64,000 nucleotides of DNA from Verrucomicrobiota bacterium (GTDB lineage: Bacteria > Verrucomicrobiota > Verrucomicrobiia > Verrucomicrobiales > Verrucomicrobiaceae): assembly GCA_025360015.1 (NCBI GenBank), contig JANYCZ010000057.1, positions 1-64,000 on the forward strand, written 5' to 3'. Positions 35,332 through 61,255 of the stretch are shown here, piece after piece. The position numbers and the translations under genes were made by a program. Position 1 is the first letter of the stretch; each line of letters opens with the position of its first letter. Under the pieces are notes generated by a model. The model did no database searches and was not told the origin of the DNA. It was given only the letters and a program-made list of their open reading frames with translations.

Positions 35332-35880
35332 TTAAACCCTGCTTGCAGCATCGAGATCGTGAACGGTGCGCATGCTTCTTGCGCTGCTCTCAGGCATGTC
35401 TCCGGCCGCCGCACCATCCTGATTCAGTGATTTCGCCAGCTTTGTCAGACGGGCGTCGGCGGCTTTTTCCTCATTCAGGTTTTTTTGCAGCAAGGCTTCC
35501 ACCTCGTCGAGACCGAGACGGGAGGCCAGAGTCAGGGCCATGCCATACTCTTCGATCTCATAACGGCCGAGATCCTGCGCTGCGGCCATCAGGGCTGCGT
35601 CGCTCGCATCTTCCTGGCAAAGGGTTTCGTTTTCCTGGATCATCTGCGCCATGCCCCGGCATTTGTAAGGGCCGAGATTTTTCCCCAGCAGCACGGCCAC
35701 GTCCACCAGCCGTGTGATCTGCACTTCCGTCTCACGCAGGCGAGCATGGAAGGCGGCCTGCAGTTTCGGAAGGGTGGCGGCGCGGGCCATTTTCGTCAGA
35801 GCTTTCAGCAGTTGTTTTTCCGCGCTGTGGAGGCTGCGGAGCTCCTGATGGAGAAGGTCTTCAAGAATGTTGGATCTCAT
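35332..35880 (-). CDS. DUF892 ferritin-like protein (YciE/YciF type)
   Basis: 182 residues from the ATG at 35880, which starts MRSNILEDLLHQELRSLHSAEKQLLKAL, the usual N-terminus. It should form a four-helix ferritin-like bundle; Glu and His residues placed at helix repeats (HQELRSLHSAEKQ, AAFHARLRETE, YEIEEYG) match the di-iron-like pattern. YciE/YciF proteins are induced by osmotic and general stress in enterics. It is divergent from the DUF3309-topoisomerase pair and may share their promoter region of 115 bp. Confidence 0.85.
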   Translation of the reverse strand: MRSNILEDLLHQELRSLHSAEKQLLKALTKMARAATLPKLQAAFHARLRETEVQITRLVDVAVLLGKNLGPYKCRGMAQMIQENETLCQEDASDAALMAAAQDLGRYEIEEYGMALTLASRLGLDEVEALLQKNLNEEKAADARLTKLAKSLNQDGAAAGDMPESSARSMRTVHDLDAASRV

Positions 35881-35995
35881 GCGCCTTGTATCGCTGAATG
35901 CGGGCTTGCCGGATGTACGCGGCGTCATTTCATGCGGAGTGATGCGAATGAAGTTTCATTACAGCCGAAATGCGCGGCCCTCGCGAAATGGCAGT

Positions 35996-38768: not shown

Positions 38769-39605
38769 TCAGGCGGCCTTTCGCGGTGCTTTGCTGGAGG
38801 CTTTGGCAGGGACTTTCTTTTTGGCTCTGCTGCCATGCTGTTGAAGGCTCTTTTTCAAAACCGAGACGAGGTCGATGACATTGGTGGGCCGGGTGCCCTT
38901 GGTCTTCTTCGTCTTGACGTCTTTCCCACCGGAGGCGGCTTTTTTCTCAATCACATCCATCAAGGCATCCTTGTACTCGTCCTTGTATTTCTTCGGGTCC
39001 CACTCGCCGGACATGCTCGCGACGAGCTGCTTAGCCATGTCTGCCTCTTTTTTGCCGATCCGCGTCTCACCGGGGACATTCAGTTCCCCGGCAGGGATGA
39101 TCTCCTCGGAGAAATGCATGAGTTCAAGGACGAGCGCATCTCCCTGCGCCTTCACCGCCGCCAGATGCTCGCGGGTTTTAATGACCACTTTGGAGATGCC
39201 AACTTTCTTTGAGCTGCGCAGCACATCACGCAGCAGGGCGTAAGCTTTGGCGCCGCTCTTGACGGGCTCCATGTAATAAGGTTTGGAAAACATCATCGGG
39301 TTGATCGCTTCGACATCGACGAACTCCTGAATGTCCACCGTCTGCGTGGCTTCTACATCCACCCGGGAAAAGTCATCGTCATTGAGCACAACGAATTTGC
39401 CCTTCTCGTATTGGTAGCCGCGCACGATGTCGTTCCATGGCACTTCCTTGCCATCGGCCTCGGCCACGCGTTTGTTGTTGATGGGGCTGAGGTCGCGCTT
39501 GCGCAGAAAGTGAAAGCGCAGTTCCTCGCGCCGTGTGGCTGGATAGAGGGTGATGGGGATGTTGACCAGGCCAAAGCTGATCGCGCCTTTCCAAATGGGT
39601 TTCAT
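38769..39605 (-). CDS. ku: Ku DNA-end-binding protein
   Basis: 278 residues. Bacterial Ku forms a homodimer that loads on double-strand ends for non-homologous end joining. It starts MKPIWKGAISFGLVNIPITLYPA, the usual start, with the family motifs FHFLRKRD, NNKRV and YQYEKGKFVVL, and the core ends near DVIEKKA. The last about 50 residues are Lys/Ala-rich, a typical DNA-contacting tail. The usual partner LigD is not in the window. The gene is divergent from the small lipoprotein with 159 bp between them. Confidence 0.95.
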   Translation of the reverse strand: MKPIWKGAISFGLVNIPITLYPATRREELRFHFLRKRDLSPINNKRVAEADGKEVPWNDIVRGYQYEKGKFVVLNDDDFSRVDVEATQTVDIQEFVDVEAINPMMFSKPYYMEPVKSGAKAYALLRDVLRSSKKVGISKVVIKTREHLAAVKAQGDALVLELMHFSEEIIPAGELNVPGETRIGKKEADMAKQLVASMSGEWDPKKYKDEYKDALMDVIEKKAASGGKDVKTKKTKGTRPTNVIDLVSVLKKSLQQHGSRAKKKVPAKASSKAPRKAA

Positions 39606-41010: not shown

Positions 41011-41055
41011 GTCAGGTCGGGTTGTGGGCAGGGCGGAGTGTTTGTATCTCATCCC

Positions 41056-41703
41056 ATGATGAAAACCTTCACCACCACCTCGTTCTCGGAATCGCCTTCC
41101 CACCATGACCACGACCTCGACACCCAGCTCCCGCCGGATGAAGATCTCATGGCCGCCATCCAGCAGCGCGATGCAGCCGCGCTCGAAACTCTGATGCACC
41201 GCTACCGCCGCCTGCTCAAGAGCGCCATCATGCGCACCGTCAATGATGATGCTAGCGCTGAAGATGTCGTGCAGGAGTGCTTCTGCGAACTGTGGCGCCA
41301 GGCTGCCCATTACTCGCCCGCCAAAGGCCGCCCGCTGGCCTGGATCATGACGCTGGGCAAGCGCCGCGCGATTGACCACCTGCGCCGCAACATGTCCTAC
41401 TGCCGTGCCAAGGACCGCATGGAAGAGTCCATCCAGCAGACGGACACCTTCACTCAGGACTCCGCCGCCGACTGCGAGCAGGCAGACATGGGCCGCGTGC
41501 TCAACGAGCACCTCACCCTCCTGCCAGACGCGCAGAAGCAGGTCATCGAACTCGCCTTCCTCAAAGGCATGAGCCAGCGCGAAGTCGCCGAGGCCACGCA
41601 CACGCCGCTGGGAACCGTGAAAACACGCATGGAGCTGGGCTTGAAAAAGCTGCGCCAGACCTTCCGCACCCGCAGCGCCATTCACACCTTGCAGGCTGCT
41701 TAA
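41056..41703 (+). CDS. ECF RNA polymerase sigma factor
   Basis: About 215 residues if started at the ATG 41056; a GTG at 41038 would add six. Region 2 has DEDLMAAIQQRDAAALETLMHRY, EDVVQECFCELWRQA and LGKRRAIDHLRR. Region 4 has LPDAQKQVIELAFLKGMSQREVAEATHTPLGTVKTRM, a complete helix-turn-helix. It resembles SigK-type ECF factors. No anti-sigma gene is adjacent, which is unusual for such factors; control may be by another route. It lies in the middle of a stress-type gene set and is a candidate regulator of it. Confidence 0.9.
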   Translation: MMKTFTTTSFSESPSHHDHDLDTQLPPDEDLMAAIQQRDAAALETLMHRYRRLLKSAIMRTVNDDASAEDVVQECFCELWRQAAHYSPAKGRPLAWIMTLGKRRAIDHLRRNMSYCRAKDRMEESIQQTDTFTQDSAADCEQADMGRVLNEHLTLLPDAQKQVIELAFLKGMSQREVAEATHTPLGTVKTRMELGLKKLRQTFRTRSAIHTLQAA

Positions 41704-42545: not shown

Positions 42546-43859
42546 TCACATCTGGCTGCGCAGCACGGAGCCGAGCATGCCCCACACCTTTTCACGCATG
42601 GGGCGCTGACGCCATGCCTTCAACGTGATCTCCTGCGAAGCGTCGCGGTCCTTTGCAAACAGCTCCTCATGGGCTTTGGCAAACTTTTCATCATGCACAT
42701 TGAGGTTTGCCTCTGCATTGAGACGCAGTGAACGGTTGTCCAGATTGGTCGAGCCCACCGAGGACCAGCAGCCGTCCACCACCATGTATTTGCAGTGGTA
42801 CAACGCGCGGCGATATTCGTAAATGCGCGCCCCCGCTTTCAGCAGCGGCCCCCACTGCGACAGGCCAACCATGCGGGCCAGCGGCTCGTCGATCAAAGGT
42901 CCCGGCACCATGATTTCGACCACCACCCCGCGTCGGCAGGCCTCCACCAACGTGCGAATGGTCAGCGCGTCTGGAATGAAATACGCATTGCCGATGCGGA
43001 TTGATCTGCGTGCAGCGGCAATGGACAGCAGCACCATGAGCCGTGCGTTTTCACCACCCTCATTGGCCGAGCTCTTAAACACCTGGCACGTGGTGTTTCC
43101 CACCGGATGCAGCTGCGGAAAATAGTCATCCCCGTGCAGCACCACGGTGCGCGTTTCCAGCCAGTTGTCCATGAAGGCCTGCTGCAACTGCGCAACGACG
43201 GGACCTTCGATGCGGTAGTGCGTGTCCCGCCAGCGCTTCGGCAGATCCGCATTCCCGTCCCAGTCGTCTGAAATGCCCACGCCGCCGGTGAAGCCGATGC
43301 GTCCATCAATCACCAGGATTTTCCGGTGGGTGCGCTGGTTGAAACGAGTGAACTTCATGTAGCGATAGATCTCCACCTCAACGCCGGCGCGCTTCAGCAG
43401 CGCCATCTCTTTGCCATGCAGGCAGTTGCTGCCCATGGCATCCTGCAGGAAATGCACCTTTACCCCAGCGTGTGCGCGTTCCGCCAGGGCGTGGGCGAAC
43501 TGGCGGCACACGGAACCTTCAGCAAGCACAAAGTTTTCAAAGGTGATCGAGCGCTGAGCGCTGGCGATGGCACCGAGCATGGCCGGAAAAATCTGGCAGC
43601 CGTTCTCCAGGGTTTTCACCGTGTTTCCATCAACCAGCGGCGGGCCGAGTAGATGGCTCATTGTTCGGCAGAAGGACGGATCGCCCACAGCATAGGAGGT
43701 GTGGATCGAGTGCTGAATCTTTTTGTCCGTCTCGAAGAAATTCCGCGCAATGAAGACTCCGGCGGCTCCGCTGACGAGCGCCGTCGCGGCCAGTGCCAGG
43801 CGGTGATGAGATTTTTCCACCACGTCAGCTTTCCTTCTTTGTCGCGTGTTGTTCATCAT
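42546..43859 (-). CDS. Cardiolipin synthase-like phospholipase D protein
   Basis: 437 residues. A short basic N-terminus and one hydrophobic helix (about 20-40) precede two HKD motifs: THRKILVIDGRIGFTGG (H178, K180, D185) and the second in YHCKYMVVDG followed by GSTNLDNRSL. This makes or turns over cardiolipin or related lipids at the inner membrane. Length is a little below classical ClsA, with only one membrane helix, like ClsB/ClsC. The 5' end overlaps the DUF421 gene by 35 bp, so the two are coupled. Confidence 0.9.
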   Translation of the reverse strand: MMNNTRQRRKADVVEKSHHRLALAATALVSGAAGVFIARNFFETDKKIQHSIHTSYAVGDPSFCRTMSHLLGPPLVDGNTVKTLENGCQIFPAMLGAIASAQRSITFENFVLAEGSVCRQFAHALAERAHAGVKVHFLQDAMGSNCLHGKEMALLKRAGVEVEIYRYMKFTRFNQRTHRKILVIDGRIGFTGGVGISDDWDGNADLPKRWRDTHYRIEGPVVAQLQQAFMDNWLETRTVVLHGDDYFPQLHPVGNTTCQVFKSSANEGGENARLMVLLSIAAARRSIRIGNAYFIPDALTIRTLVEACRRGVVVEIMVPGPLIDEPLARMVGLSQWGPLLKAGARIYEYRRALYHCKYMVVDGCWSSVGSTNLDNRSLRLNAEANLNVHDEKFAKAHEELFAKDRDASQEITLKAWRQRPMREKVWGMLGSVLRSQM

Positions 43860-44358
43860 CTGTCATTTTAATGAAGCTTATTTCCCCGCTCCGCTCCAGA
43901 CAGGCGAGCCTGACTCTTTGAGTGTCCTCAGCCATGGCTTTGAGTCGAAGCTGCTCCGCCAGGTCTTCGTCACTGATGTGGTGCCTCCGCAAGGTCTGCT
44001 GCTGCACCTGCCCGTCACGCACCAGCACATCGGCATGGCCCTTGACCCAGTTTTCAAACGTGGGCCAGCGGCACGCCAGGCTTCCCATGAGGCGATGGAG
44101 CAGGATCAAAAAGAAGCAGGCACCGATGGTTGGGAACAAACGCTCCGAGCCCGTGATGCTGCGTCCCATGATCGATCCCAGAATCAGGATGAGCAGAACA
44201 TCAAAAGCGGACTTTTTGGCGAAGGATCGTTTGTCGGCCAGTCTCACCAGAACGATGCCCGAGATAAACACGACCAGCGCGCGGGGGATCATCTGACGGA
44301 ATTCCAGCTCCTGCGCCGGATGATCGAGACCGAACAAGTCGTTGAGATCAGTCCACAT
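43825..44358 (-). CDS. DUF421 (YetF-like) membrane protein
   Basis: 177 residues from the ATG at 44358. Three hydrophobic helices fill about 30-95 (RALVVFISGIVLVRLADKRS, FDVLLILILGSIMGRSITG, ACFFLILLHRLMG). The soluble C-terminal part (NWVKGHADVLVRDGQVQQQTL, then HHISDEDLAEQLRL and ERSGEISFIK) is the DUF421 hallmark. These proteins are linked to spore or stress resistance with no known activity. The end overlaps the PLD gene. Confidence 0.88.
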   Translation of the reverse strand: MWTDLNDLFGLDHPAQELEFRQMIPRALVVFISGIVLVRLADKRSFAKKSAFDVLLILILGSIMGRSITGSERLFPTIGACFFLILLHRLMGSLACRWPTFENWVKGHADVLVRDGQVQQQTLRRHHISDEDLAEQLRLKAMAEDTQRVRLACLERSGEISFIKMTDDEQHATKKES

Positions 44359-44366
44359 CGGGTGAG

Positions 44367-44672
44367 CTAGGACTTCGGTGCACGCTTGCGTGTGGCCGCA
44401 GCTTTGCGGGCGGAGGCGGAGCGCTTGGTGGCTGGGCGTGAGGCTGCAGCCTTTCCGCCGATTTTTCCGCCCTTGCGCGCGGGGGCCTGGTCCTCCTCCG
44501 TGCCTCTGCCGGAGCCGCTTTTCTTGCCGCCGCCGGAAGCCTTGTTCACTGTGGCCCAAGCGCGCTGCTCGGCCACCTTTTTGGAAACGCCGCGCTTTTC
44601 GTAGCCTTCCTCGATGTGCTCGGCTTCGCGCTTTTGCTTGTTTGTATAACTGGATTTGTCTCCGCGTGGCAT
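44367..44672 (-). CDS. Small basic protein with Lys/Ala-rich tail
   Basis: 101 residues from the ATG at 44672. The N-terminus MPRGDKSSYTNKQKREAEHI is followed by EEGYEKRGVSKKVAEQRAWATVNK, a domain often annotated as plasmid-stabilisation or KGG-type stress protein. The last half is Lys/Arg/Ala-rich and histone-H1-like (KRSASARKAAATRKRAPK), suggesting DNA or RNA binding. It ends eight bases before the DUF421 start, so it leads the DUF421-PLD unit. Confidence 0.75.
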   Translation of the reverse strand: MPRGDKSSYTNKQKREAEHIEEGYEKRGVSKKVAEQRAWATVNKASGGGKKSGSGRGTEEDQAPARKGGKIGGKAAASRPATKRSASARKAAATRKRAPKS

Positions 44673-45334: not shown

Positions 45335-45934
45335 TCAAGGAGAGACGTAGGGGCCCTCAATGATGCTTTCTTTGACGGGTCTGCGTCCGGAGGGAGCTTC
45401 CATCTGGCGGAGCTTTTCGGGAAGCTTGTCGGGATCCCCGGGACGGCCCACGGCAAACATCGCGGCGATGGCATAGTCCTCCGGAACCTTCAGCTCGCGT
45501 TGAGCGCGCTCGAAATCAAAGCCCGCCATGCCGTGCACGACGAGGCCCATGGCGGTGCCTTGCAGGGCAAGATTTTCAAAAGCGCTGCCGCAGTCAAACA
45601 AGTGCACGGGATTGGGCTGTCCATTCTTCGCAAAGACCTTGTGGGAAAGGATGACGACCAGCATGGCGGCGTGCTGGCACCAGAGTTGATTGGCTTCCAT
45701 CAGCAGACCGAAGAAGGCGGGCCACTGGGAGGTTTCACGCCGCGCATAGAGGAAGCGCCACTCCTGCTCATTATACGTGGAAGGGGCCCAGCGTGCGGCC
45801 TCAAACAGTGTCAGCAATTCCTCCTGGGAGATTGGCTCCCCGGTCATGGCGCGTGGCGACCAGCGGCGGTAGATCAGCGGTTCAATGGCATGGTCTGGCT
45901 GGCGGCTTTGGGCGGGATCAGGGAGTTGGCTCAT
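45335..45934 (-). CDS. Nitroreductase-family protein
   Basis: 199 residues, FMN-dependent. Signatures are RRWSPRAMTGEPIS at the N-terminus, FEAARWAPSTYNEQEWRF, and LQGTAMGLVVHGMAGFD; the C-terminal part AIAAMFAVGRPGDPDKLPEKL is typical of the short nitroreductase group. It would reduce nitro compounds, quinones or similar using NAD(P)H. The gene is divergent from the GH15 gene, 120 bp apart. Confidence 0.9.
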   Translation of the reverse strand: MSQLPDPAQSRQPDHAIEPLIYRRWSPRAMTGEPISQEELLTLFEAARWAPSTYNEQEWRFLYARRETSQWPAFFGLLMEANQLWCQHAAMLVVILSHKVFAKNGQPNPVHLFDCGSAFENLALQGTAMGLVVHGMAGFDFERAQRELKVPEDYAIAAMFAVGRPGDPDKLPEKLRQMEAPSGRRPVKESIIEGPYVSP

Positions 45935-49666: not shown

Positions 49667-50545
49667 ATGAAATCCTTCGCCGATCCCCGCTATTTGTATG
49701 CCAGACCACCTTACTCTGGAAGGGCGCAGTCTCCTCCAGGCAATGAAGCTGAGATGCAGCCGGCTGCCGACCACGGTGAGAGCAGCTACACTGGACACCA
49801 GCTTTTGGTGGGACGCCGGGCATTGATCACCGGCGCTGACAGCGGGATCGGGCGGGCGGTGGCGCTGGCTTTTGCACGGGAGGGTGCGGATGTGGCTATT
49901 GCTTATCTCTCCGAAGAAGAGGATGCACGCGTCACTGAAAAGCTGGTGCTGGAGGCCGGGAGGAAAGCGGTGCTGCTGCCCGGGAATCTGGACTCCAAAC
50001 AGGGCTGTGATGAGGTGGCGCAGGCGGCGGTGAGCCAGCTGGGCGGCGTGGACATCCTGGTGAACAATGCGGCATTCCAACGTACAGCTTCCTCGCTGGC
50101 GGAAACTGAGGATGAGGATTTCGTGAAGACGTACGAAGTCAATGTTCTGGGCATGTTCAGGCTATGCCGCGCTCTGCTGCCGCAGATGCAGCCAGGTGCC
50201 TCCATCATCAACACGGCTTCGATTCAATCGTTTGATCCCAGCCCGAACCTGCTGGCCTATGCCTCCAGCAAAGCGGCCATTGCCAGTTTCACACGCTCGC
50301 TGGCGAACCTGGCCATGGAGCAGGGCGTGCGGGTGAACGCCGTGGCACCCGGGCCGGTGTGGACGCCCTTGATTCCTTCCACGATGGACAAGGAAAAAGT
50401 GAAGACGTTTGGTTCGCACACGGCCTTTGGACGCGCTGCACAGCCTGCGGAGCTGGCACCGATCTTTGTCTTTCTGGCCAGCGCGGAGGCGAGCTATGTC
50501 ACCGGTGAAGTGTATGGAGCCACAGGTGGGCAGATGCCGCTATAA
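49667..50545 (+). CDS. Short-chain dehydrogenase/reductase, general-stress type
   Basis: 292 residues. The N-terminal about 40 residues (PPYSGRAQSPPGNEAEM) are the tail seen in the YdaD/YhdF-type general-stress SDRs. The Rossmann core has ITGADSGIGRAVALAFAREGADVA, NNAA, NTASIQSFDP with the catalytic Ser, and YASSKAAI with Tyr-x3-Lys. C-terminal end GATGGQMPL is typical. It reduces or oxidises small alcohols, aldehydes or glucose-like substrates with NAD(P). The gene is next to DUF72, 16 bp apart, so the pair may be one unit. Confidence 0.9.
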   Translation: MKSFADPRYLYARPPYSGRAQSPPGNEAEMQPAADHGESSYTGHQLLVGRRALITGADSGIGRAVALAFAREGADVAIAYLSEEEDARVTEKLVLEAGRKAVLLPGNLDSKQGCDEVAQAAVSQLGGVDILVNNAAFQRTASSLAETEDEDFVKTYEVNVLGMFRLCRALLPQMQPGASIINTASIQSFDPSPNLLAYASSKAAIASFTRSLANLAMEQGVRVNAVAPGPVWTPLIPSTMDKEKVKTFGSHTAFGRAAQPAELAPIFVFLASAEASYVTGEVYGATGGQMPL

Positions 50546-50561
50546 TGTCATCACCCATCTT

Positions 50562-51536
50562 ATGTCTGCGTCGCACTCCAGTCAGTTTCACATCGGCATT
50601 TCAGGATGGCGGTATCCACCGTGGCGCGGCACCTTCTATCCGAAAGAATGGCCACAGAGGCGGGAGCTGGAGTATGCGTCCAGCCAGGTCAATTCCATCG
50701 AGATCAATGGTTCTTTCTATGCGCTGCAACGGCCGCAGAGTTTTCAGGCGTGGTATGAAGCGACGCCGGAAAACTTCATGTTTTCCGTCAAAGGCGGGCG
50801 CTTCATCACCCATATTCGTCGGCTGCAGGATGTGAAGGCTCCGCTGGCGAACTTCTTTGCCTCAGGCGTTCTGTGTCTGAAGGAAAAACTGGGGCCGTTT
50901 CTGTGGCAACTGCCGCCGAGTCTGAAGTATGAGCGTGAACGGCTGGAGACTTTCTTCGAGCTGCTGCCGCGTGACACCCGCGCTGCGGCCAAACTTGCGA
51001 GACAGCATGATGCGAAGGTCTCTGGCAAAGCGGCCATGAAGGTGGACGAGGTGAGGCCGCTGAGGCATGCGCTGGAGGTGAGGCATGCTTCGTTTCAATG
51101 CGCGGAGTTTGTGGAACTGCTGCGCGCGCATGACGTCGCTCTAGTCGTGGCAGACACGGCTGGCAAATGGCCCTTCATGGAGGATGTGACTTCCGACTTC
51201 ATTTATGTGCGCCTGCATGGAGATGAGAAGCTGTATGCCAGCGGTTACACGGAGGCCGCCCTGAAGGAGTGGGCGCGCAAACTGCGTGTGTGGGCCCGTG
51301 GCAGCTCTCCGGCGGGCTCCAAGCTCACCGGGCCGAAAGCGAAGACTGCCGCGCAAGGGCGGGATGTCTTTGTCTATTTCGACAATGACTTGAAGGTACG
51401 TGCTCCGCATGATGCGCAGTCTCTGGCACACCGGCTGGGCTTATCCAAAAAACCGCCGACTCCAGGGGGACTGGAATCGGCGGATGCCTTTGAGCCTCGG
51501 CACAACTGGCCGGACTCTTCGAGACGGAGGCGCTAA
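50562..51536 (+). CDS. DUF72 protein
   Basis: 324 residues from the ATG at 50562; a longer in-frame version would read through the SDR gene end and is rejected. The family TIM-barrel-like fold is shown by IGISGWRYPPWRGTFYP, YASSQVNSIEINGSFY, FSVKGGRFITHIRRL, FLWQLPPSLKYE, and YVRLHGDEKLYASGYTE. DUF72 proteins are of unknown activity. An extra C-terminal tail of about 30 residues is polar. The stop abuts that of the convergent secreted-protein gene with no base between. Confidence 0.9.
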   Translation: MSASHSSQFHIGISGWRYPPWRGTFYPKEWPQRRELEYASSQVNSIEINGSFYALQRPQSFQAWYEATPENFMFSVKGGRFITHIRRLQDVKAPLANFFASGVLCLKEKLGPFLWQLPPSLKYERERLETFFELLPRDTRAAAKLARQHDAKVSGKAAMKVDEVRPLRHALEVRHASFQCAEFVELLRAHDVALVVADTAGKWPFMEDVTSDFIYVRLHGDEKLYASGYTEAALKEWARKLRVWARGSSPAGSKLTGPKAKTAAQGRDVFVYFDNDLKVRAPHDAQSLAHRLGLSKKPPTPGGLESADAFEPRHNWPDSSRRRR

Positions 51537-53161: not shown

Positions 53162-54883
53162 ATGAAAACTTCATCTCGCCCCATCACCGTCTTTTCCTTG
53201 CTGGCACTTGCCTGCCCACTGGCCGCGCAGGTGGTCACTCCACCTAACCAGCAGCTGACCTCCTTTGCGGCCTCTGCCGACACCACCGCCGCCGCCTCGG
53301 GCGATGGCCTTGTGGTGGATCGCGGGCAGGCCTATCTGATGCGGAATGGACGCGCCGCGCGAATCAACAAGGCGCTGGTGCCAGACGGGAATGTGCTCAC
53401 TTGGGAGGGGCGACTGGTACCGCTGCCGTCGGGCTTTAGCATTTACGACCATGCGGCCACGCAGCCGGACGGGATCATGATGTTTGGTGGAAGCCCTTAC
53501 TTAATGCACAAGGGCCGCGCCGCTCTGATCAACAATGCCGTGGTGCCCCAGGGACAGGTGCTGACAGCGCAGGGACGGTTGATGGCGCTGCCTTCTGACT
53601 TCAGCGGTTTCGTGCCGGATGCTGCAGGCGCCGCACAGCCTTTGAGCACCGATCTGGGCGAGTCAGCCTCGCCGGCTGCGCTGCGAGCCGCCGCAGGGGC
53701 TGGTTTGCAGTCCAACGGCACGGTGGGAATGCCCGCCGCAGGTGGAACGAATGTGGCGAGTCCTGGAATGAATGCAGGGGGCGGCGCTGGGACTGGGGCT
53801 GTTCCTGGAGTCGGAACGAATGGGGGAAATACCATTAATAACGGAGACACCGTGCTCCTGGGTGGGCAGGGTTTACGCCCGATTGCGGGTGGCGGGCTGC
53901 GCACGATACCTGGAGATACGGCGGCTACGGTGACCAATGGAGCGACACGTCCTGCGGTCACTGGCAAGCCTCCAGGCCTCACTGGTGCCCGGACCGTCGG
54001 CGATGGTGTAAGAGACAATGGTACGCGGGCTCGCTCCGTGGGCACGCCTCCGGCAATGCCGGGAGGAGGAGTGGGTGGGAACACTGGCGGCGGTGCCACC
54101 ACGACGGCCGGAGGAGGTGCGATCACCAATACCGCAGGTCCCACCGTAGCCAATGGAGGCATCACCACTGGACTGGGCAACACTGGGACGAACGCCAACG
54201 GAACAAGCGTGAACGGAACGAATGGCAACGGAACGAATGGCAATGGTACGAATGGCAACGGAACGAATGGCAACGGAACGAATGGCAACGGAACGAATGG
54301 CAACGGAACGAATGGCAACGGAACGAATGGCAATGGTACGACTAGCAACGGAACGAATGCCAATGGTTCTACTAATGGAACGAACGGCAATGGAACAACA
54401 GCCAACACGGCTGGTGGGGTGCCGGCGACAACCGCCGGGGGCGCGACCGCTAATACTGCGGGTGGGGTTCCTGCCACCACTGCCGGAGGCGCAACGGCTA
54501 CCACGGCTGGCGGCGTCCCTGCGACGACCGCAGGCGGAACGACAGCGAACACAGCAGGCGGTATGCCAGCGACAACCGCTGGAGGCGCGACCGCGAACAC
54601 TGCCGGTAGTGCACCCGCGACCACTGCAGGAGGCACTACGGCAAATACAGCCGGGGGCACTGCAGCTAACACGGCCGGGGGCATCGGAGGAACTTCAGCC
54701 AGCGGCGGTTCTAATGGAAGCAACGGCGGTGGCACTTCAGGTGGCACTTCAGGTGGCAGCGGGGGAGGTGCCTCCGGTGGAAGCTCTGGTGGGGGCAGCG
54801 GTGGTGGAGCCTCGGGAGGCAGTGGTGGTGGCGCAGGTGGTGGTGCAGGTGGTGGCGCAGGTGGTGGCGCAGGTGGTCGTTGA
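53162..54883 (+). CDS. Secreted DUF6799-type protein with long repeat tail
   Basis: 573 residues with a signal peptide (about 1-22). Two copies of a DUF6799-like domain (about 44-85 and 97-140) are shown by DGLVVDRGQAYLMRNGRAAR and GIMMFGGSPYLMHKGRAAL. From about 200 the protein is low complexity: Gly/Thr/Asn segments, about eight perfect NGTNG units (near 345-385) coded by a 15-bp minisatellite, then an 8-residue repeat of the type AGG-x-x-A-x-T (about 415-510), and a Gly-rich end (GGGAGGGAGG). The tail could be flexible, a matrix or adhesin. The region is prone to slippage. Confidence 0.75.
   Translation: MKTSSRPITVFSLLALACPLAAQVVTPPNQQLTSFAASADTTAAASGDGLVVDRGQAYLMRNGRAARINKALVPDGNVLTWEGRLVPLPSGFSIYDHAATQPDGIMMFGGSPYLMHKGRAALINNAVVPQGQVLTAQGRLMALPSDFSGFVPDAAGAAQPLSTDLGESASPAALRAAAGAGLQSNGTVGMPAAGGTNVASPGMNAGGGAGTGAVPGVGTNGGNTINNGDTVLLGGQGLRPIAGGGLRTIPGDTAATVTNGATRPAVTGKPPGLTGARTVGDGVRDNGTRARSVGTPPAMPGGGVGGNTGGGATTTAGGGAITNTAGPTVANGGITTGLGNTGTNANGTSVNGTNGNGTNGNGTNGNGTNGNGTNGNGTNGNGTNGNGTNGNGTTSNGTNANGSTNGTNGNGTTANTAGGVPATTAGGATANTAGGVPATTAGGATATTAGGVPATTAGGTTANTAGGMPATTAGGATANTAGSAPATTAGGTTANTAGGTAANTAGGIGGTSASGGSNGSNGGGTSGGTSGGSGGGASGGSSGGGSGGGASGGSGGGAGGGAGGGAGGGAGGR
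54206..54350 (+). repeat. 15-bp minisatellite coding NGTNG
   Basis: A tandem array of AATGGCAACGGAACG-type units, about eight in perfect phase plus diverged ends. Synonymous changes (AACGGA or AATGGT) are scattered, so the array grew by unit duplication. Unit number is likely to vary between strains. Confidence 0.85.
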
Positions 54884-55449: not shown

Positions 55450-56955
55450 TTACGGTTTCAGCCACGGGACCCAGGCGAACCAAAGCATGTAGGACAGGGC
55501 GAGAGCGAGGAGGCCATTGATGCGTCCGGCGCGCGGCTGGCGAACGCAGGCGATGAGTCCCAGCATCAAAGCGCCGCAGTGAATGAGCAGCGCGAGGAAG
55601 AACCACCACGGGCTGCTGAAGAGAGTGGCGTAGAGTGCAGCGGCGATGAATGTCGTGGCGAGAGCCATGCATGCTGCGGCACGTCGTCCGCAGCGCACTG
55701 CCAGCGTTTTCTTTCCCGCCGCTTCATCGGCTTCCAGATCGGGAAAGCCGGCGAGAATGATGGCGGGGAGAACGGCGAAGAACATGGGCAGCGCGAGCAG
55801 CCAAGGGCCTGTGTGCGCTGCGCCGCCCTGAGAGACATGGCCGAGCAGCACAACCAGCGCACTGTGGGTGAGGGCCACGACCGGCTCGCCGCAGGTGCGA
55901 TAGGCCAGCTTCAACGGCGGCGCGGTGTAGCCGATACCGAGGGTCAGGGCTGCGACGATGAGAGAGAGAAGACCGGGCAGGGATGTTTCAGGGAGAAGGG
56001 TGAGCCACACGATGACGCAGGCCAGAGATCCCGCCGCGACGTTCCTGCCTCTGTGGAGCTGCTGCGCAGTCAAGAGCCCCTGCACGATGACGCGTGAGCC
56101 GCCGGTGAAGGGGCCGCTGTTGCGGTTGTGCGTGTCGGTGGGTACATCGTGGATTTCATTGGTGAGCACGGCGATGGCTTCGAGCAGCCAAGCTGCTGCC
56201 CAGCATAGAAGGTAGGGCTGCCAGAGGAAGGGGGTGCCGCGCTCTGCCGAGGCAGTGGCAGCTCCCGCAGTCAGCGCCAGCCAGGGAAAAAAGTAAAACT
56301 GCGGGCGCAGGGCCTGGAGCCAGGCGCGGGTGCGCGGCCGCCAGCCGGTGTGCAGAATCTGGTCAAGCTGATAACCCTCTCGACGTGCCTGGTCCAGCCA
56401 GAGCTGGCGCTGCTCAGGCGTCGAGGCACGGATGGGGGAGAAGAGCAGCACTCGCACGGGGCCGATGCCGCAGAACCGCAGTGTGGCATCGCGCAACGCA
56501 CGGATGCTGCACGAGTGCAGCAGGCCGCGAAAGATCCAGCGGGGTGTGTCCATGGTGGCTATGAGCGTCGCGGATCTGCCGCCGAGCAGCCCTTCCCAGC
56601 CGCCATCCTCACGTTCCTCAAACGCAAAGCCGGGGAGCAGCACGCGGTCCAGCCAGCCTTTGAGCAGTGCAGGCATGCTGCCCCACCAGACGGGATAGAC
56701 GATCATAAGATGGTTTGCCCATAGAAGCTCCTGTCTTGAGCGCTCCAAGCAGGGCTCCAACTCCTGGCCGGTATAATTGGGATTGAAGACGAGCTCACGC
56801 AGCGCGAGCCAGCGGACCTCATGCTGGGCGGCGGAGGCACCATTGGCGGCAGCGGCAACGAGGCCGCCGCAAAAGCTGTCCGCACGGGGATGCGCATCGA
56901 TCACCAGAACGTGGTATCTACGTGATTTGGCTGCAGCTTGATGAGTCGCATTCAT
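55450..56955 (-). CDS. Flavodoxin-fold NAD(P)H:quinone reductase fused to UbiA prenyltransferase
   Basis: 501 residues in one frame. Residues 14-205 form a NAD(P)H dehydrogenase (quinone) of the flavodoxin-like family: VLVIDAHPRADSF at the FMN loop, ANHLMIVYPVWWGSMPALLKGWLDRVL and LIATMDTPRW. Residues 220-500 form a UbiA-type prenyltransferase with about eight helices, the first Asp-rich motif N266-EIHD270 plus D274, IGYTAPPLKLAYRTCGE, and the second Asp motif D406-LEAD410. All catalytic motifs of both halves are intact. This would join ring prenylation to quinone reduction in one chain. The gene stands alone; no other menaquinone or ubiquinone gene is near. Confidence 0.88.
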   Translation of the reverse strand: MNATHQAAAKSRRYHVLVIDAHPRADSFCGGLVAAAANGASAAQHEVRWLALRELVFNPNYTGQELEPCLERSRQELLWANHLMIVYPVWWGSMPALLKGWLDRVLLPGFAFEEREDGGWEGLLGGRSATLIATMDTPRWIFRGLLHSCSIRALRDATLRFCGIGPVRVLLFSPIRASTPEQRQLWLDQARREGYQLDQILHTGWRPRTRAWLQALRPQFYFFPWLALTAGAATASAERGTPFLWQPYLLCWAAAWLLEAIAVLTNEIHDVPTDTHNRNSGPFTGGSRVIVQGLLTAQQLHRGRNVAAGSLACVIVWLTLLPETSLPGLLSLIVAALTLGIGYTAPPLKLAYRTCGEPVVALTHSALVVLLGHVSQGGAAHTGPWLLALPMFFAVLPAIILAGFPDLEADEAAGKKTLAVRCGRRAAACMALATTFIAAALYATLFSSPWWFFLALLIHCGALMLGLIACVRQPRAGRINGLLALALSYMLWFAWVPWLKP

Positions 56956-57314
56956 CGGGGTTGGGGCCGGCGCATCCGCGCCTGGAATGCTTGAGAATCG
57001 TTTGAGGCAGGCCGGCTGCGCGTCAGGCAGTGTGTGAAGGCAAGAGATTTTAGGCGTGGTTGTTCGTCTGCATCATGCTCTTCAAGCCGAGGATCAGCTT
57101 GTGTGCGGCGTTCAATGTGGGCCGATTGTCGCCACAGGGGGGGACGCGTAGGTGTGGCTGCTTGCAGACTGAAGTCCGCGCGCCGTGGCTGCCCGATCCG
57201 AGCACAAAAAGCATGATGGCTACGCTCATTCGATTTGTCCGGCGCGATAGGATGTGCAGGTGCCAGCCAATGCCGCCCCTCCCTGAAACATTTCTTTCCA
57301 ACGCCGCCAGAGTC
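56956..57314. other. Intergenic region with two repeat fragments
   Basis: About 360 bp between divergent genes. It holds 57072-57101, a 30-bp piece found with two mismatches inside the MITE-like element at 47.9 kb, and the REP-like palindrome GCAGACTGAAGTCCGC at 57164-57179. The treZ promoter must lie here but no clear box pair was found. Confidence 0.55.
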
Positions 57315-59207
57315 ATGACTGAAACACCCGACAATTTGCGCCGTCGCCTGCCTGTGGGCGCGGAAACACAGCCCGAGGGCGGAGTACACTTTCGGACCTG
57401 GGCACCGTCATCCAAGCAAGTGACCGTGCTGCTGGGGCGGGACGAAGATCTGGCGTATGGCATTGAAGTGCCGCTGACTGCTGAGGCGGGCGGTTACTGG
57501 TCTGGCTGGTCTGCGGCCGCGTCTGCGGGGATGCATTATCGCTACCGGCTGGACAATGGCGAGTTTCCAGATCCGGCTTCGCGCTTTCAGCCGAAAGGGC
57601 CGCATGGCGCCTCACAGATCGTCGATCCGGCGATCTTTCAATGGTCGGATGACCAATGGAAGGGCGTCGCGCGCGAGGGGCAGGTGCTGTATGAAATGCA
57701 CCTCGGTACTTTCACGCGCGAGGGCACATGGGCGGCGGCGATGGCGGAACTGCCGCAGCTTGCGGAGCTAGGCGTCACGCTGCTGGAGGTGATGCCCGTG
57801 GCGGATTTTCCCGGGCGCTTTGGCTGGGGGTATGATGGGGTGAACCTGTTTGCGCCGACGCGTCTGTATGGCGAGCCCGATGACTTCCGGCGCTTTGTGG
57901 ATCGTGCGCATTCGCTGGGGCTCGGCGTGATTCTGGACGTCGTTTACAATCACTTCGGGCCGGACGGCAATTTTCTGAAGGAGTTCGCTCCGCATTACTT
58001 CACCACGCGGTATGCCACGGACTGGGGCGATCCGCCGAATTTTGACGATGAATTCAGCGCGCCGGTGCGCGAGCTCATCACTGCCAATGCGGCATACTGG
58101 ATTGATGAATTTCATTGCGATGGTCTGCGCCTGGATGCGACCCAAAACATTTATGATGCCTCCAATGAGCATGTGCTGGCGGCCATCACCCGGCGTGCGC
58201 ATGCGGCGGCGCGCGGGCGTGGCATTTACATTGTGGGGGAAAACGAGCCGCAGCATGCGCACCTGATACGCCCGCGTGCACAGGGCGGCCACGGGATGGA
58301 TGCGCTGTGGAATGACGACTTCCACCACACCGCCATCGTGGCGATGACCGGGCGAAACGAAGCGTACTACACCGATTACAAAGGATCGCCGCAGGAGTTC
58401 ATCTCAGCGACGAAATGGGGCTTTCTCTTCCAAGGGCAGCGCTACAAGTGGCAGAAGGCGCGCCGGGGTACGCCGTGCTTTGATCTGACTCCGGCGAACT
58501 TCGTCATCTTCCTGCAGAACCACGATCAGATCGCGAACTCCCTGTGGGGACGGCGCGCGCACACGATCACCAGCGCGGCGAAGCTGCGGGCTCTCACCGC
58601 ACTGCTGCTGCTGGGGCCGAACACACCGATGCTGTTTCAAGGGCAGGAGTTTGCGGCTTCCACACCCTTCCTTTATTTTGCAGATCACAAGCCGGAGCTG
58701 GCCGTTCTGGTCGCGAAAGGCCGTGAAGTATTCCTGGGCCAGTTTCCAAGCATCGCATCGGAGGATGTTGCGGCGCTCATTCCGAACCCTGAGCGGGAAG
58801 AAACGTTTCAGCGCTGCAAGCTGGACTTCGCGGATCGTGACAAAAATGCGGAGGTGCTGCTGCTGCACCGAGAGCTGCTGCGACTGCGCAAGAACGATCC
58901 GCTGCTGGGCAATGCGCAGCGCGGCACCTTTGACGGTGCGGTGCTGGGCACGTCGGCCTTTGTGCTGCGGTTCTTTGGGCGGGATCAAAACGACCGCCTG
59001 CTGCTGGTGAATCTGGGCGCGCATCTGCACCTGGATCCCGCACCGGAGCCGCTGCTGGCGCCGCCGCTGGGCTGCGTGTGGGAGACCGCCTGGTCCAGCG
59101 AGGATCCGCGCTATGGCGGCGGCGGTACGCCGGCCATCGATTCTGAAGACAACTGGAACCTTCCCGCTGAATTTGCCGCACTGCTCACCCCCATTTCCGC
59201 ACCATGA
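57315..59207 (+). CDS. treZ: Malto-oligosyltrehalose trehalohydrolase (GH13)
   Basis: 630 residues from the ATG at 57315. TreZ cuts trehalose from malto-oligosyltrehalose, the last step of the TreY-TreZ path. An N-terminal CBM48-like domain (RTWAPSSKQVTVLLG) is followed by the GH13 barrel: DVVYNHFGPDGN, GLRLDATQNI with the nucleophile, IVGENEP with the acid Glu, and FLQNHDQIANS. ALLLLGPNTPMLFQGQEF is typical. The partner treY is not in the window. The stop overlaps the next start by four bases (ATGA), so the two are coupled. Confidence 0.93.
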   Translation: MTETPDNLRRRLPVGAETQPEGGVHFRTWAPSSKQVTVLLGRDEDLAYGIEVPLTAEAGGYWSGWSAAASAGMHYRYRLDNGEFPDPASRFQPKGPHGASQIVDPAIFQWSDDQWKGVAREGQVLYEMHLGTFTREGTWAAAMAELPQLAELGVTLLEVMPVADFPGRFGWGYDGVNLFAPTRLYGEPDDFRRFVDRAHSLGLGVILDVVYNHFGPDGNFLKEFAPHYFTTRYATDWGDPPNFDDEFSAPVRELITANAAYWIDEFHCDGLRLDATQNIYDASNEHVLAAITRRAHAAARGRGIYIVGENEPQHAHLIRPRAQGGHGMDALWNDDFHHTAIVAMTGRNEAYYTDYKGSPQEFISATKWGFLFQGQRYKWQKARRGTPCFDLTPANFVIFLQNHDQIANSLWGRRAHTITSAAKLRALTALLLLGPNTPMLFQGQEFAASTPFLYFADHKPELAVLVAKGREVFLGQFPSIASEDVAALIPNPEREETFQRCKLDFADRDKNAEVLLLHRELLRLRKNDPLLGNAQRGTFDGAVLGTSAFVLRFFGRDQNDRLLLVNLGAHLHLDPAPEPLLAPPLGCVWETAWSSEDPRYGGGGTPAIDSEDNWNLPAEFAALLTPISAP

Positions 59208-61255
59208 ATACTGAACTCACCCGCCGCATCGACGTTGCCCAAGCCCAGGCTGACAACGCACGTGAAATCCTCCGCCGCGAATGGCTCTCCACCAACGGTC
59301 TCGGAGGCTATGGCTCCGGCACCATCTCAGGGACGGTGACGCGGCGCTATCACGGACTTCTCGTCGCGGCATTGCCAGCGCCGTTTGGCCGTGTGGTCAT
59401 GCTCAATCATCTGGCCGAGCATCTGCGCCTGAATGAAAACCGCCGCGTGCTCATCGGCGGTGAGGAATCCCGCACGGCGGGGGAGAATGGCACGCAGGAG
59501 CATTACGTGAAAGAATTCCGGCTGGAGCATGGGCTGCCGGTCTGGGTGTTTGAAGCATGGGGCTACACCATTGAAAAACGGCTGCTGCTCATCCACGGGC
59601 AGAACACGGTACACATCACCTACAAGCTGCTGTCCGGGCAGGAATGCGCGAAGCTGGAGCTGTGCCCTTCGGTGCATTTCCGCCGCTATGAGCATGATGT
59701 CACGGAGCCCTTTGCTGCCGGTTATTCTTTGATGATCCATGAGCGGCGCTATGAGCTGGCCACCGCCGGGCTGCCCTATCCGCTGCGTTTGTATGTCAAT
59801 GACGACAAGGCCTGCTTCAGGCATGAGGGCGGGCAGGTGCGCGAGATCGGCTATCAGGAAGAGGCGGATCGCGGCTACCATTCGCGCGGCATGCTGTGGA
59901 GTCCCGGTGCGTTTACGATTGATCTACGGCCGAACCGTCCCGTGACGCTGGTGGCTTCGACGGAGGACTGGGCCTCCATCCTGGCGATTGATCCCGAGTC
60001 CGCGCTGGCGGCGGATCTGGCACGGCGTCAGCGTCTGGTGGACGCCACGCAGCCGGTGGTACAAACAGCGCCTGCTTCTGAGCTGGTGCTCGCGGCGGAT
60101 CAGTTCATCATCACGCCGGCAGGGCGAATCGAAGACGCGGCGCGTGCCAGGGCCGGTGGCGATGAAGTGCGCACGGTGATTGCGGGTTATCACTGGTTCA
60201 CCGACTGGGGGCGCGATACGATGATCAGCCTCGAAGGGCTCACGCTGACCACGGGGCGCTATCATGAGGCGGCGTGGATTCTGCGGACCTTTGCGTACTA
60301 TATCCGCGATGGTCTGATCCCGAACTACTTTCCGGATGGGGAGAGGGAAGGGGTGTACCACACGGCGGATGCCACGATGTGGTTCTTCCACGCGCTGGAC
60401 CGCTACCTGCATGCCACGAATGACCGGGGTACGCTGCAACTGCTGCTGCCAAAGCTGGTGGACATCATTGAGCATCATCTGCGTGGCACGCGCTTTGGCA
60501 TTGGCGTGGATCATGGGGACGGGCTGCTCAAACAGGGGGCAGAAGGCTACCAGCTCACGTGGATGGATGCGAAGGTGGACGGCTGGGTGGTCACGCCGCG
60601 CCGGGGCAAAGCCGTAGAAATCAATGCGCTGTGGTACAACGCCCTGTGCCTGCTCACGGAATGGCTGCGCGCTGAGCAGGGCGCGGAGGCCGCCGCGCCC
60701 TATGAGGAGCATGCGAAACGCGCACGTGAATCCTTCAACCGACGCTTCTGGTCTGAAGAGCGCGGGTATCTGCTGGATGTGGTAGACGGGGAGCATGGGG
60801 ATGACGCCGCCATCCGGCCCAATCAAATTTTCAGCATCTCGCTGCCGCACCCGGTGCTGGATGAAGCGCACTGGCCGGCGGTGCTGGAAAAGGTGCGCTC
60901 GGAGCTGCTCACGCCCGTGGGCCTGCGCTCGCTCTCTCGCGGACATCCTGACTACAAGGCGCGTTACTTTGGGGATCTGCGCGCGCGCGATGCGGCCTAT
61001 CATCAGGGTACGGTCTGGGCCTGGCTCATTGGCCCGTTTGTGGATGCGTGGCTAAAGGTTCATCCAGATGACCGCGGAGGCGCACGTCATTTCCTGGATG
61101 GTCTCATCAAACATCTCGATCAAGGCTGCGTGGGCTCCATCAGTGAAGTCTTCGATGCCGAAGAACCGTTCACGCAGCGCGCGTGCATCGCCCAGGCATG
61201 GAGTGTGGCCGAGGTGCTGCGCTGCTGGGCCAAGACTGCGGAGCCTGCTGCATAA
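59204..61255 (+). CDS. Glycogen debranching enzyme, GDE/GH133-like
   Basis: 683 residues. N-terminal domain of the archaeal-type GDE (EWLSTNGLGGYGSGTISGTVTRRYHGLLVA, about 25-55) and an (alpha/alpha)6 barrel with DWGRDTMISLEGL, and HQGTVWAWLIGPFVDA near the end. It hydrolyses alpha-1,6 branches by an amylo-1,6-glucosidase activity. The start overlaps treZ by four bases and glgX starts 98 bp after its stop, so the three form a probable operon. It is a different enzyme type from GlgX, giving two ways to debranch. Confidence 0.9.
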   Translation: MNTELTRRIDVAQAQADNAREILRREWLSTNGLGGYGSGTISGTVTRRYHGLLVAALPAPFGRVVMLNHLAEHLRLNENRRVLIGGEESRTAGENGTQEHYVKEFRLEHGLPVWVFEAWGYTIEKRLLLIHGQNTVHITYKLLSGQECAKLELCPSVHFRRYEHDVTEPFAAGYSLMIHERRYELATAGLPYPLRLYVNDDKACFRHEGGQVREIGYQEEADRGYHSRGMLWSPGAFTIDLRPNRPVTLVASTEDWASILAIDPESALAADLARRQRLVDATQPVVQTAPASELVLAADQFIITPAGRIEDAARARAGGDEVRTVIAGYHWFTDWGRDTMISLEGLTLTTGRYHEAAWILRTFAYYIRDGLIPNYFPDGEREGVYHTADATMWFFHALDRYLHATNDRGTLQLLLPKLVDIIEHHLRGTRFGIGVDHGDGLLKQGAEGYQLTWMDAKVDGWVVTPRRGKAVEINALWYNALCLLTEWLRAEQGAEAAAPYEEHAKRARESFNRRFWSEERGYLLDVVDGEHGDDAAIRPNQIFSISLPHPVLDEAHWPAVLEKVRSELLTPVGLRSLSRGHPDYKARYFGDLRARDAAYHQGTVWAWLIGPFVDAWLKVHPDDRGGARHFLDGLIKHLDQGCVGSISEVFDAEEPFTQRACIAQAWSVAEVLRCWAKTAEPAA

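Follow-up and report, generated by a model that had tools for sequence, protein, structure and literature searches.

One open reading frame in the 64,000-nucleotide stretch of verrucomicrobial DNA analysed here (hereafter, the window) joins a flavodoxin-fold NAD(P)H:quinone reductase to a UbiA-type membrane prenyltransferase. The reading that we favor, with a rough probability of 0.45 and on the basis of sequence comparisons, is that of a bifunctional accessory enzyme in which the reductase half would supply a hydroquinone and the UbiA half would prenylate it. Each domain is ordinary, but the combination is not, and neither is the stress-type setting shared by part of the family.

The frame occupies positions 55450-56955 of the minus strand, as do all features of the protein given below, and encodes 501 amino acids from an ATG start with no internal stop. 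Pfam places Flavodoxin_2 (PF02525) at residues 15-184 (E 5e-36, 124.7 bits against a cut-off of 27) and UbiA (PF01040) at residues 228-473 (E 6e-23, 81.9 bits against 34.2), and the stretch between them (residues ~185-227) is free of stops. These coordinates and hits confirm the uninterrupted fusion claimed in a preliminary description of this DNA. We delimited a reductase half (residues 14-193; 56377-56916), a UbiA half (residues 212-501; 55453-56322), and, with bounds set by hand, a linker between them (residues 194-211; 56323-56376). Six further full-length fusions were found, and both Pfam families are above cut-off in one frame in all of them (7/7 with the window). The linker is open in 7/7 as well. 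Against the relatives G030, G015, and G005, respectively, dN/dS was 0.11, 0.12, and 0.20 for the reductase half, 0.13, 0.23, and 0.20 for the UbiA half, and 0.29, 0.89, and 0.17 for the 18-codon linker, values that are rough because synonymous sites are near saturation but that point to purifying selection on both halves in the three pairs. The open frame in 7/7, with both domains in frame, and the dN/dS values exclude a frameshift or missed stop at the junction, and the six further fusions exclude a chance joining in one assembly.

The catalytic motifs of both halves had been described as intact. This holds for the Asp-rich motifs of the UbiA half, where N266xxxD270xxxD274 in NEIHDVPTD (residues 266-274; 56134-56160) and D406xxxD410 in DLEAD (residues 406-410; 55726-55740) are invariant in 7/7. 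It also holds for the reductase residues in the same alignment: H22, P23, R24, and S27 in HPRADS (residues 22-27; 56875-56892), which we take from family knowledge to be the FMN phosphate loop; P88, W90, W91, P95, A96, K99, G100, D103, and R104 in the quinone-reductase signature region PVWWGSMPALLKGWLDRV (residues 88-105; 56641-56694), placed by the alignment and by comparison with 3lcm, the Flavodoxin_2 residues PxWWxxxPAxLKGxxDRV being conserved in 7/7 fusions; and T134, D136, and P138 in TMDTP (residues 134-138; 56542-56556). It does not hold for TTGG, the motif of mammalian NQO1, which is absent and whose place is presumably occupied by TMDTP (T134-x-D136-x-P138). A TxxTP motif is common to the fusion and 3lcm, where it reads THNTP, and the presence of TMDTP instead of TTGG puts the reductase half nearer to the 3lcm type than to NQO1 proper. 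Among solved structures, a profile of the fusion likewise scored 3lcm/4f8y best (117 bits, the match lying over the reductase half), followed by NQO2 and, lower, NQO1; 3lcm/4f8y are listed as putative oxidoreductase/NADPH Quinone Oxidoreductase. All of these are Flavodoxin_2 reductases too, but they are unfused chains of 196-294 residues.

The window's genome encodes four UbiA proteins. One scores above cut-off as a heme O synthase (TIGR01473) and another as a MenA (1,4-dihydroxy-2-naphthoate polyprenyltransferase; TIGR00751, 163 against 102; NF004751, 267.5 against 264), whose gene adjoins a MenC-like gene that is under the cut-off of its own model; the third, EboC-like, does not reach cut-off, and the fourth is the fusion. 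The UbiA half of the fusion is under the cut-off of all 25 NCBIfam families listed of the 30 matched. MenA models are near the top of this ranking, making the half MenA-like, yet its best MenA-type scores are 57-59 bits against cut-offs of 225 and 264 (TIGR00751, 27 against 102), and it falls in a separate clade. That it could be the cell's MenA is ruled out by the separate, above-cut-off MenA. The fused protein is thus accessory, and a role in ordinary quinone synthesis is further weakened by its presence in only 5/48 genomes of the genus. Among solved structures, the best hit of the UbiA half is UBIAD1 (8djk, E 1.6e-10), followed by chlorophyll a synthase (1e-6) and digeranylgeranylglyceryl phosphate synthase (1e-4). 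As a control, the genome's own MenA matched UBIAD1 at 51.9 bits against 30.1 for the UbiA half, so a match to UBIAD1 is a sign of the MenA-like part of the superfamily and of no specific kinship; the candidate orthology with UBIAD1 was therefore dropped.

The hydrophobic stretches and loop charges of the UbiA half are loosely compatible with a nine-helix membrane fold; a predicted model from a 4-row alignment had a mean pLDDT of 44.7, too low for use. Counting Lys and Arg with loop bounds set by hand, and leaving out the stretch 255-262 (no K/R, inside a hydrophobic segment), we found 18 over 133 residues in the five loops of the face that carries the N-terminus and both Asp motifs, against 2 over 54 residues in the five loops of the opposite face. 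By the positive-inside rule, this asymmetry puts the reductase and the site of prenyl transfer both on the cytosolic side, and the reductase half would sit on the active-site face of the UbiA half.

Five of the six further fusions come from related Verrucomicrobiota; the sixth is on an alphaproteobacterial plasmid. Among 56 genomes (the window's own, G000, and relatives), full-length fusions were found in G030 (76%), G015 (66%), and G005 (59%), and the 5/48 genus genomes are these three, G247, and G000 itself, which has no second fusion copy and in which the only other hit, a weak one, is to the UbiA half. A sixth genus match, in G435, covers the reductase half only and contains internal stops. 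Beside this damaged gene (L066:1750-2124), a PRC-barrel-like protein and an acetate-kinase-like gene were seen by eye. In a sample of 387 genomes of the phylum searched at E 1e-15, at least 32 match somewhere and the fusion is full length in G000, G247, and G265 (52%), of which G265 belongs to a different genus of the family. Of 384 genomes sampled from the class and searched at E 1e-40, at least 11 match, with full-length copies in G000, G005, G247, and G265. At most four candidates were scored per genome in these two samples, which may for this reason miss fusions. The window's genus is Prosthecobacter-like: two tubulin-family genes lie in tandem in the window's genome, and one member of the pair in G030 scores 976 bits to BtubA (PDB 2BTO), which we take to be the Prosthecobacter protein.

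A search of 72,556 plasmid records gave 287 matches, of which a single one, from Roseinatronobacter sp. S2 (Alphaproteobacteria; 41.8% over 99%), is full length. This copy is annotated only as 'NAD(P)H-dependent oxidoreductase', its prenyltransferase half having been overlooked. Used as the query, it matched 116 plasmid records, with itself as the sole full-length match, and with only the UbiA half as the query there were 12 matching plasmid records, of which the 11 others are not named as fusions. The 50,697 phage records contain no match, and a phage origin was rejected on that count; in viral contigs, three stretches fit a pattern and none was confirmed. No PADLOC family points to a role in a defence system, and 12 genomes from the phylum of G448 gave no match, a sample uninformative on absence. 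A scan of assembled contigs, which relies on exact peptide patterns, yielded three confirmed loci, each with its match in the UbiA part; one of them aligns from residue 176 on and has a PAS domain as its own N-terminal domain. This PAS-UbiA protein, from a Chloroflexi MAG (L032:5356-6660; PAS_9 E 5e-9 and UbiA E 5e-32 in Pfam), is another unusual UbiA fusion.

Trees were built for each half after removal of duplicate loci and of fragments with fewer than 170 (reductase) or 215 (UbiA) aligned residues. The seven fused rows form one side of a branch in the reductase tree (27 rows; support 91/85, 88% of 200 bootstrap trees). In the UbiA tree (30 rows), they form one clade (100/99) together with the unfused proteins of G355 and G227, set apart (100/99) from 18 MenA-type rows, of which the genome's own MenA is the one checked individually against MenA models. 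Roseinatronobacter is the first to branch in this clade, so that two changes are required to account for the fused rows alone, and these rows alone form one group in just 2% of the bootstrap trees of UbiA halves. The UbiA tree is midpoint-rooted, with long branches meeting where the two sides join. Most simply, the halves would have been fused once, the G355/G227 line would later have lost the reductase, and a transfer would have taken place between phyla; two separate joinings may alternatively have occurred.

In the phylum sample, G355 and G227 have one match each at E 1e-15, the unfused UbiA, and the genome with the closest unfused reductase (G378) gave no match to the UbiA half at the search thresholds, with at most four candidates scored per genome; the coupling of the two activities is thus not obligatory. 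The unfused UbiA gene of G355 is divergent from a LigD-type gene, and that of G227 lies amid DUF72, isochorismatase-type, and DUF892 genes and close to a transposase fragment. In the G227 protein (L060:8995-10128), Ala replaces the third Asp of the first motif (NDIHDYESA), and this protein could be altered or in decay. A TetR or MerR gene adjoins three of six unfused reductase relatives (L038, seen by eye, L094, and L097) and none adjoins the others (L093, L096, and L098).

The fusion gene of the window lies in a region of ~28 kb (35332-63486), much of it syntenic with G030, that is rich in stress-type genes. On one side, these include genes for DUF892 (35332-35928, minus strand), presumably YciF-type ferritin-like, Ku for end joining (38769-39605, minus), a sigma-70 family (ECF) factor (41038-41703, plus), a PLD-type phospholipase/cardiolipin synthase-like protein (42546-43859, minus), YetF (43825-44559, minus), the sole copy found in the genome, a nitroreductase family protein (45335-45934, minus), and DUF72 (50409-51536, plus). 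On the other side are trehalose/glycogen-type genes: an alpha-amylase/CBM48/DUF3459 protein that we take to be TreZ-like (57060-59207, plus), a debranching amylo-alpha-1,6-glucosidase (59204-61255, plus), and an isoamylase-type protein. Topoisomerase IB is another of the stress-type families of this region, and an exo/endonuclease/phosphatase-family protein, a GH15/trehalase-like protein, Nramp, and SDR are further families of the window. These families are generally linked to stress survival. Identity to G030 is 74% for the topoisomerase, 55% for Ku, 84% for the sigma factor, 82% for the PLD protein, 83% for YetF, 85% for the nitroreductase, 85% for the amylase, and 89% for the debranching enzyme. 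The sigma factor is also conserved in G015 (79%), ~5 kb from the fusion there, and on the Roseinatronobacter plasmid 76 bp separate the end of a sigma factor gene from the fusion gene that follows it, with nitroreductase, ferritin-like, YetF, catalase, and superoxide dismutase genes within 12 kb.

YetF, nitroreductase, and sigma factor genes are therefore near the fusion in the window, in G030, and on the plasmid, and DUF892 in the window and on the plasmid; in G005, a DUF892 gene follows the fusion. Measured to gene midpoints, and with families that were chosen after viewing the neighbors and two genomes (G000 and G030) that are related, so that the chance figures for a gene placed anywhere are a guide and not a test, the single YetF gene lies 11.5 kb from the fusion in G000 (0.004), 1.8 kb in G030 (0.0007), and 7.7 kb on the plasmid (0.03), and the nearest DUF892 lies 19.8 kb away in G000 (0.02), 0.4 kb in G005 (0.002), and 8.1 kb on the plasmid (0.03), as well as 3.1 kb from the unfused UbiA gene of G227 (0.015), which has 14 matches representing 13 genes, one of them split. 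All three DUF892 genes of G000 are on the window's own 129 kb contig. In the nine records (seven fusions plus G355 and G227), YetF is on another contig in G265 and was not found in five others; DUF892 is absent from the contig in G015, G247, G265, and G355 and from all of G030. Three of the six verrucomicrobial fusions (G015, G247, and G265) thus have neither family on their contig, which in G015 and G265 is only 18-19 kb long. An ABC transporter/FtsX/LolA-like set is near the fusion in G015 and G247, and the two neighbors scanned in G265 are both unrelated. The stress-type setting belongs to part of the fusion family, not to all of it.

No gene for quinone-ring synthesis was found next to the fusion among the neighbors scanned, as had been described for the window. 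In G030, however, an ABC1 (UbiB/COQ8-type) kinase gene, from a quinone-related family, lies 105 bp upstream of the fusion (L054:10637-12295). ABC1 was rejected as a fixed partner: it is near in G030 only, the 91% homolog of G000 being on the same contig at ~58 kb, those of G005 and G247 on another contig, and those of G015, G265, and the plasmid more distant homologs (28-40%). In G247, a Polyketide_cyc (START-type) gene, which we presume to be COQ10-like from its family make-up only, lies 87 bp downstream of the fusion on the same strand (L058:8764-9237). Upstream of the fusion gene, the element TGACGCGCAGCNGGNNTGCCT (57005-57025, minus strand) is common to the window and its closest ortholog, that of G030, and is a possible part of a promoter, a weak indication from two related genomes; it is the sole match in the window at up to three mismatches and has no second copy in the window or in the G030 locus (L054). 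The EcfG-type promoter consensus GGAAC-N15/18-CGTT is absent upstream of 9/9 genes (seven fusions and two unfused UbiA).

In the mechanism that we propose, the cytosolic FMN-dependent half would draw on NAD(P)H to convert a small free quinone, whose head group is most likely a naphthoquinone or benzoquinone, to the hydroquinone. This would be the electron-rich nucleophile for the MenA-like UbiA half, which would transfer a polyprenyl tail to it on the cytosolic side of the membrane. The outcome would be a lipid-anchored prenyl-hydroquinone made under stress, apart from the main menaquinone route, and probably serving as a membrane antioxidant or representing a salvaged quinone. The preliminary description proposed the opposite order, the prenylated product being reduced right after its synthesis. 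UbiA prenyl transfer is an electrophilic substitution on an electron-rich ring. In a study of UBIAD1, the enzyme was inactive on menadione unless a reductant (DTT) was present, and its authors concluded that menadione must be reduced prior to prenylation (PMC4398444). This precedent and the chemistry of the ring favor a reductase that works ahead of prenyl transfer over one that follows it. Given the stress-type surroundings, the enzyme may make a quinol that protects the membrane, or it may salvage free quinones.

Other divisions of labor between the halves can be considered. The UbiA half could prenylate a phenolic acceptor, such as DHNA or hydroxybenzoate, with the reductase then reducing the resulting prenylated quinone and keeping it as a quinol. 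NQO-type reductases are able to reduce prenylated quinones, and the fusion holds the reductase at the membrane; however, what the transfer yields directly is a phenol or hydroquinone, already reduced, which makes reduction at that moment unnecessary and this order less economical, and a quinone acceptor would require reduction before transfer, as indicated by the work on UBIAD1 (PMC4398444). We regard this order as unlikely. We give similarly little credence to the possibility that the UbiA half mainly anchors or feeds the reductase for quinone detoxification or for recycling of the quinone pool under stress, prenyl transfer being secondary or lost. The stress-type surroundings, the TetR or MerR genes beside three of the six unfused reductase relatives seen, and the Ala in the first motif of the unfused G227 protein fit such a tether, but the five UbiA motif residues are invariant in 7/7 fusions and the UbiA half is under purifying selection. 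Less probable still is a different type of acceptor, such as a polar lipid or a secondary metabolite, with the reductase modifying a different part of the compound. The breadth of the UbiA superfamily, the scores of the UbiA half below every NCBIfam cut-off among the 25 families listed of 30, and a cytochrome P450 gene second downstream of the fusion in Roseinatronobacter would agree with it, whereas the solved structures that best match the reductase half are those of quinone reductases and MenA models are near the top for the UbiA half.

A more far-reaching version of the hydroquinone-supply reading, which we consider rather doubtful, is that of a self-contained prenylquinol synthase, linked to stress, which would capture free quinones, use NAD(P)H to reduce them, and immediately prenylate them into the membrane. 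If true, the cell would have a second pool of lipid quinols, separate from the menaquinone pathway, and the fusion would be a bacterial one-protein counterpart of the NQO-plus-UBIAD1 partnership, with the halves moving jointly between phyla. The neighboring Ku, ferritin-like, YetF, sigma factor, and trehalose/glycogen-type genes suggest a stress-survival quinol apart from respiration. UbiA enzymes acting on quinone heads need a reduced acceptor, and the reductase that supplies it in the cell is often unclear; a natural fusion points to the partner, suggests the order of steps, and provides a single construct for testing the coupling. Unlike the window protein, UBIAD1 has, as far as we are aware, no fused reductase. 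This human menaquinone-4 synthase (PDB 8djk) is from the same UbiA superfamily and, according to the same study, prenylates a naphthoquinol and needs the reduced quinone (PMC4398444).

Fusions of UbiA are already known. The IspH-UbiA 'Rosetta stone' proteins have an N-terminal redox enzyme and a C-terminal UbiA, with one proposed pathway for both (PMC4746011). There, however, IspH supplies the prenyl precursor and does not act on the acceptor, and the proteins are from sulfate-reducing anaerobes (PMC4746011); the N-terminal domain of the window protein is Flavodoxin_2 in Pfam, not IspH. In agreement with the preliminary description, which knew of no characterized protein with this layout, no description of a flavodoxin/quinone reductase-UbiA fusion was found in the titles and abstract openings of open papers, an absence that is weak evidence since most subscription journals fall outside this coverage; for the Flavodoxin_2-UbiA combination, we found no characterization. 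Elsewhere in the window, a long ORF at 53162-54883 consists of NGTNGNGTNGN and GGA/TAGG repeats, is open on both strands, and possibly encodes a secreted repetitive protein.
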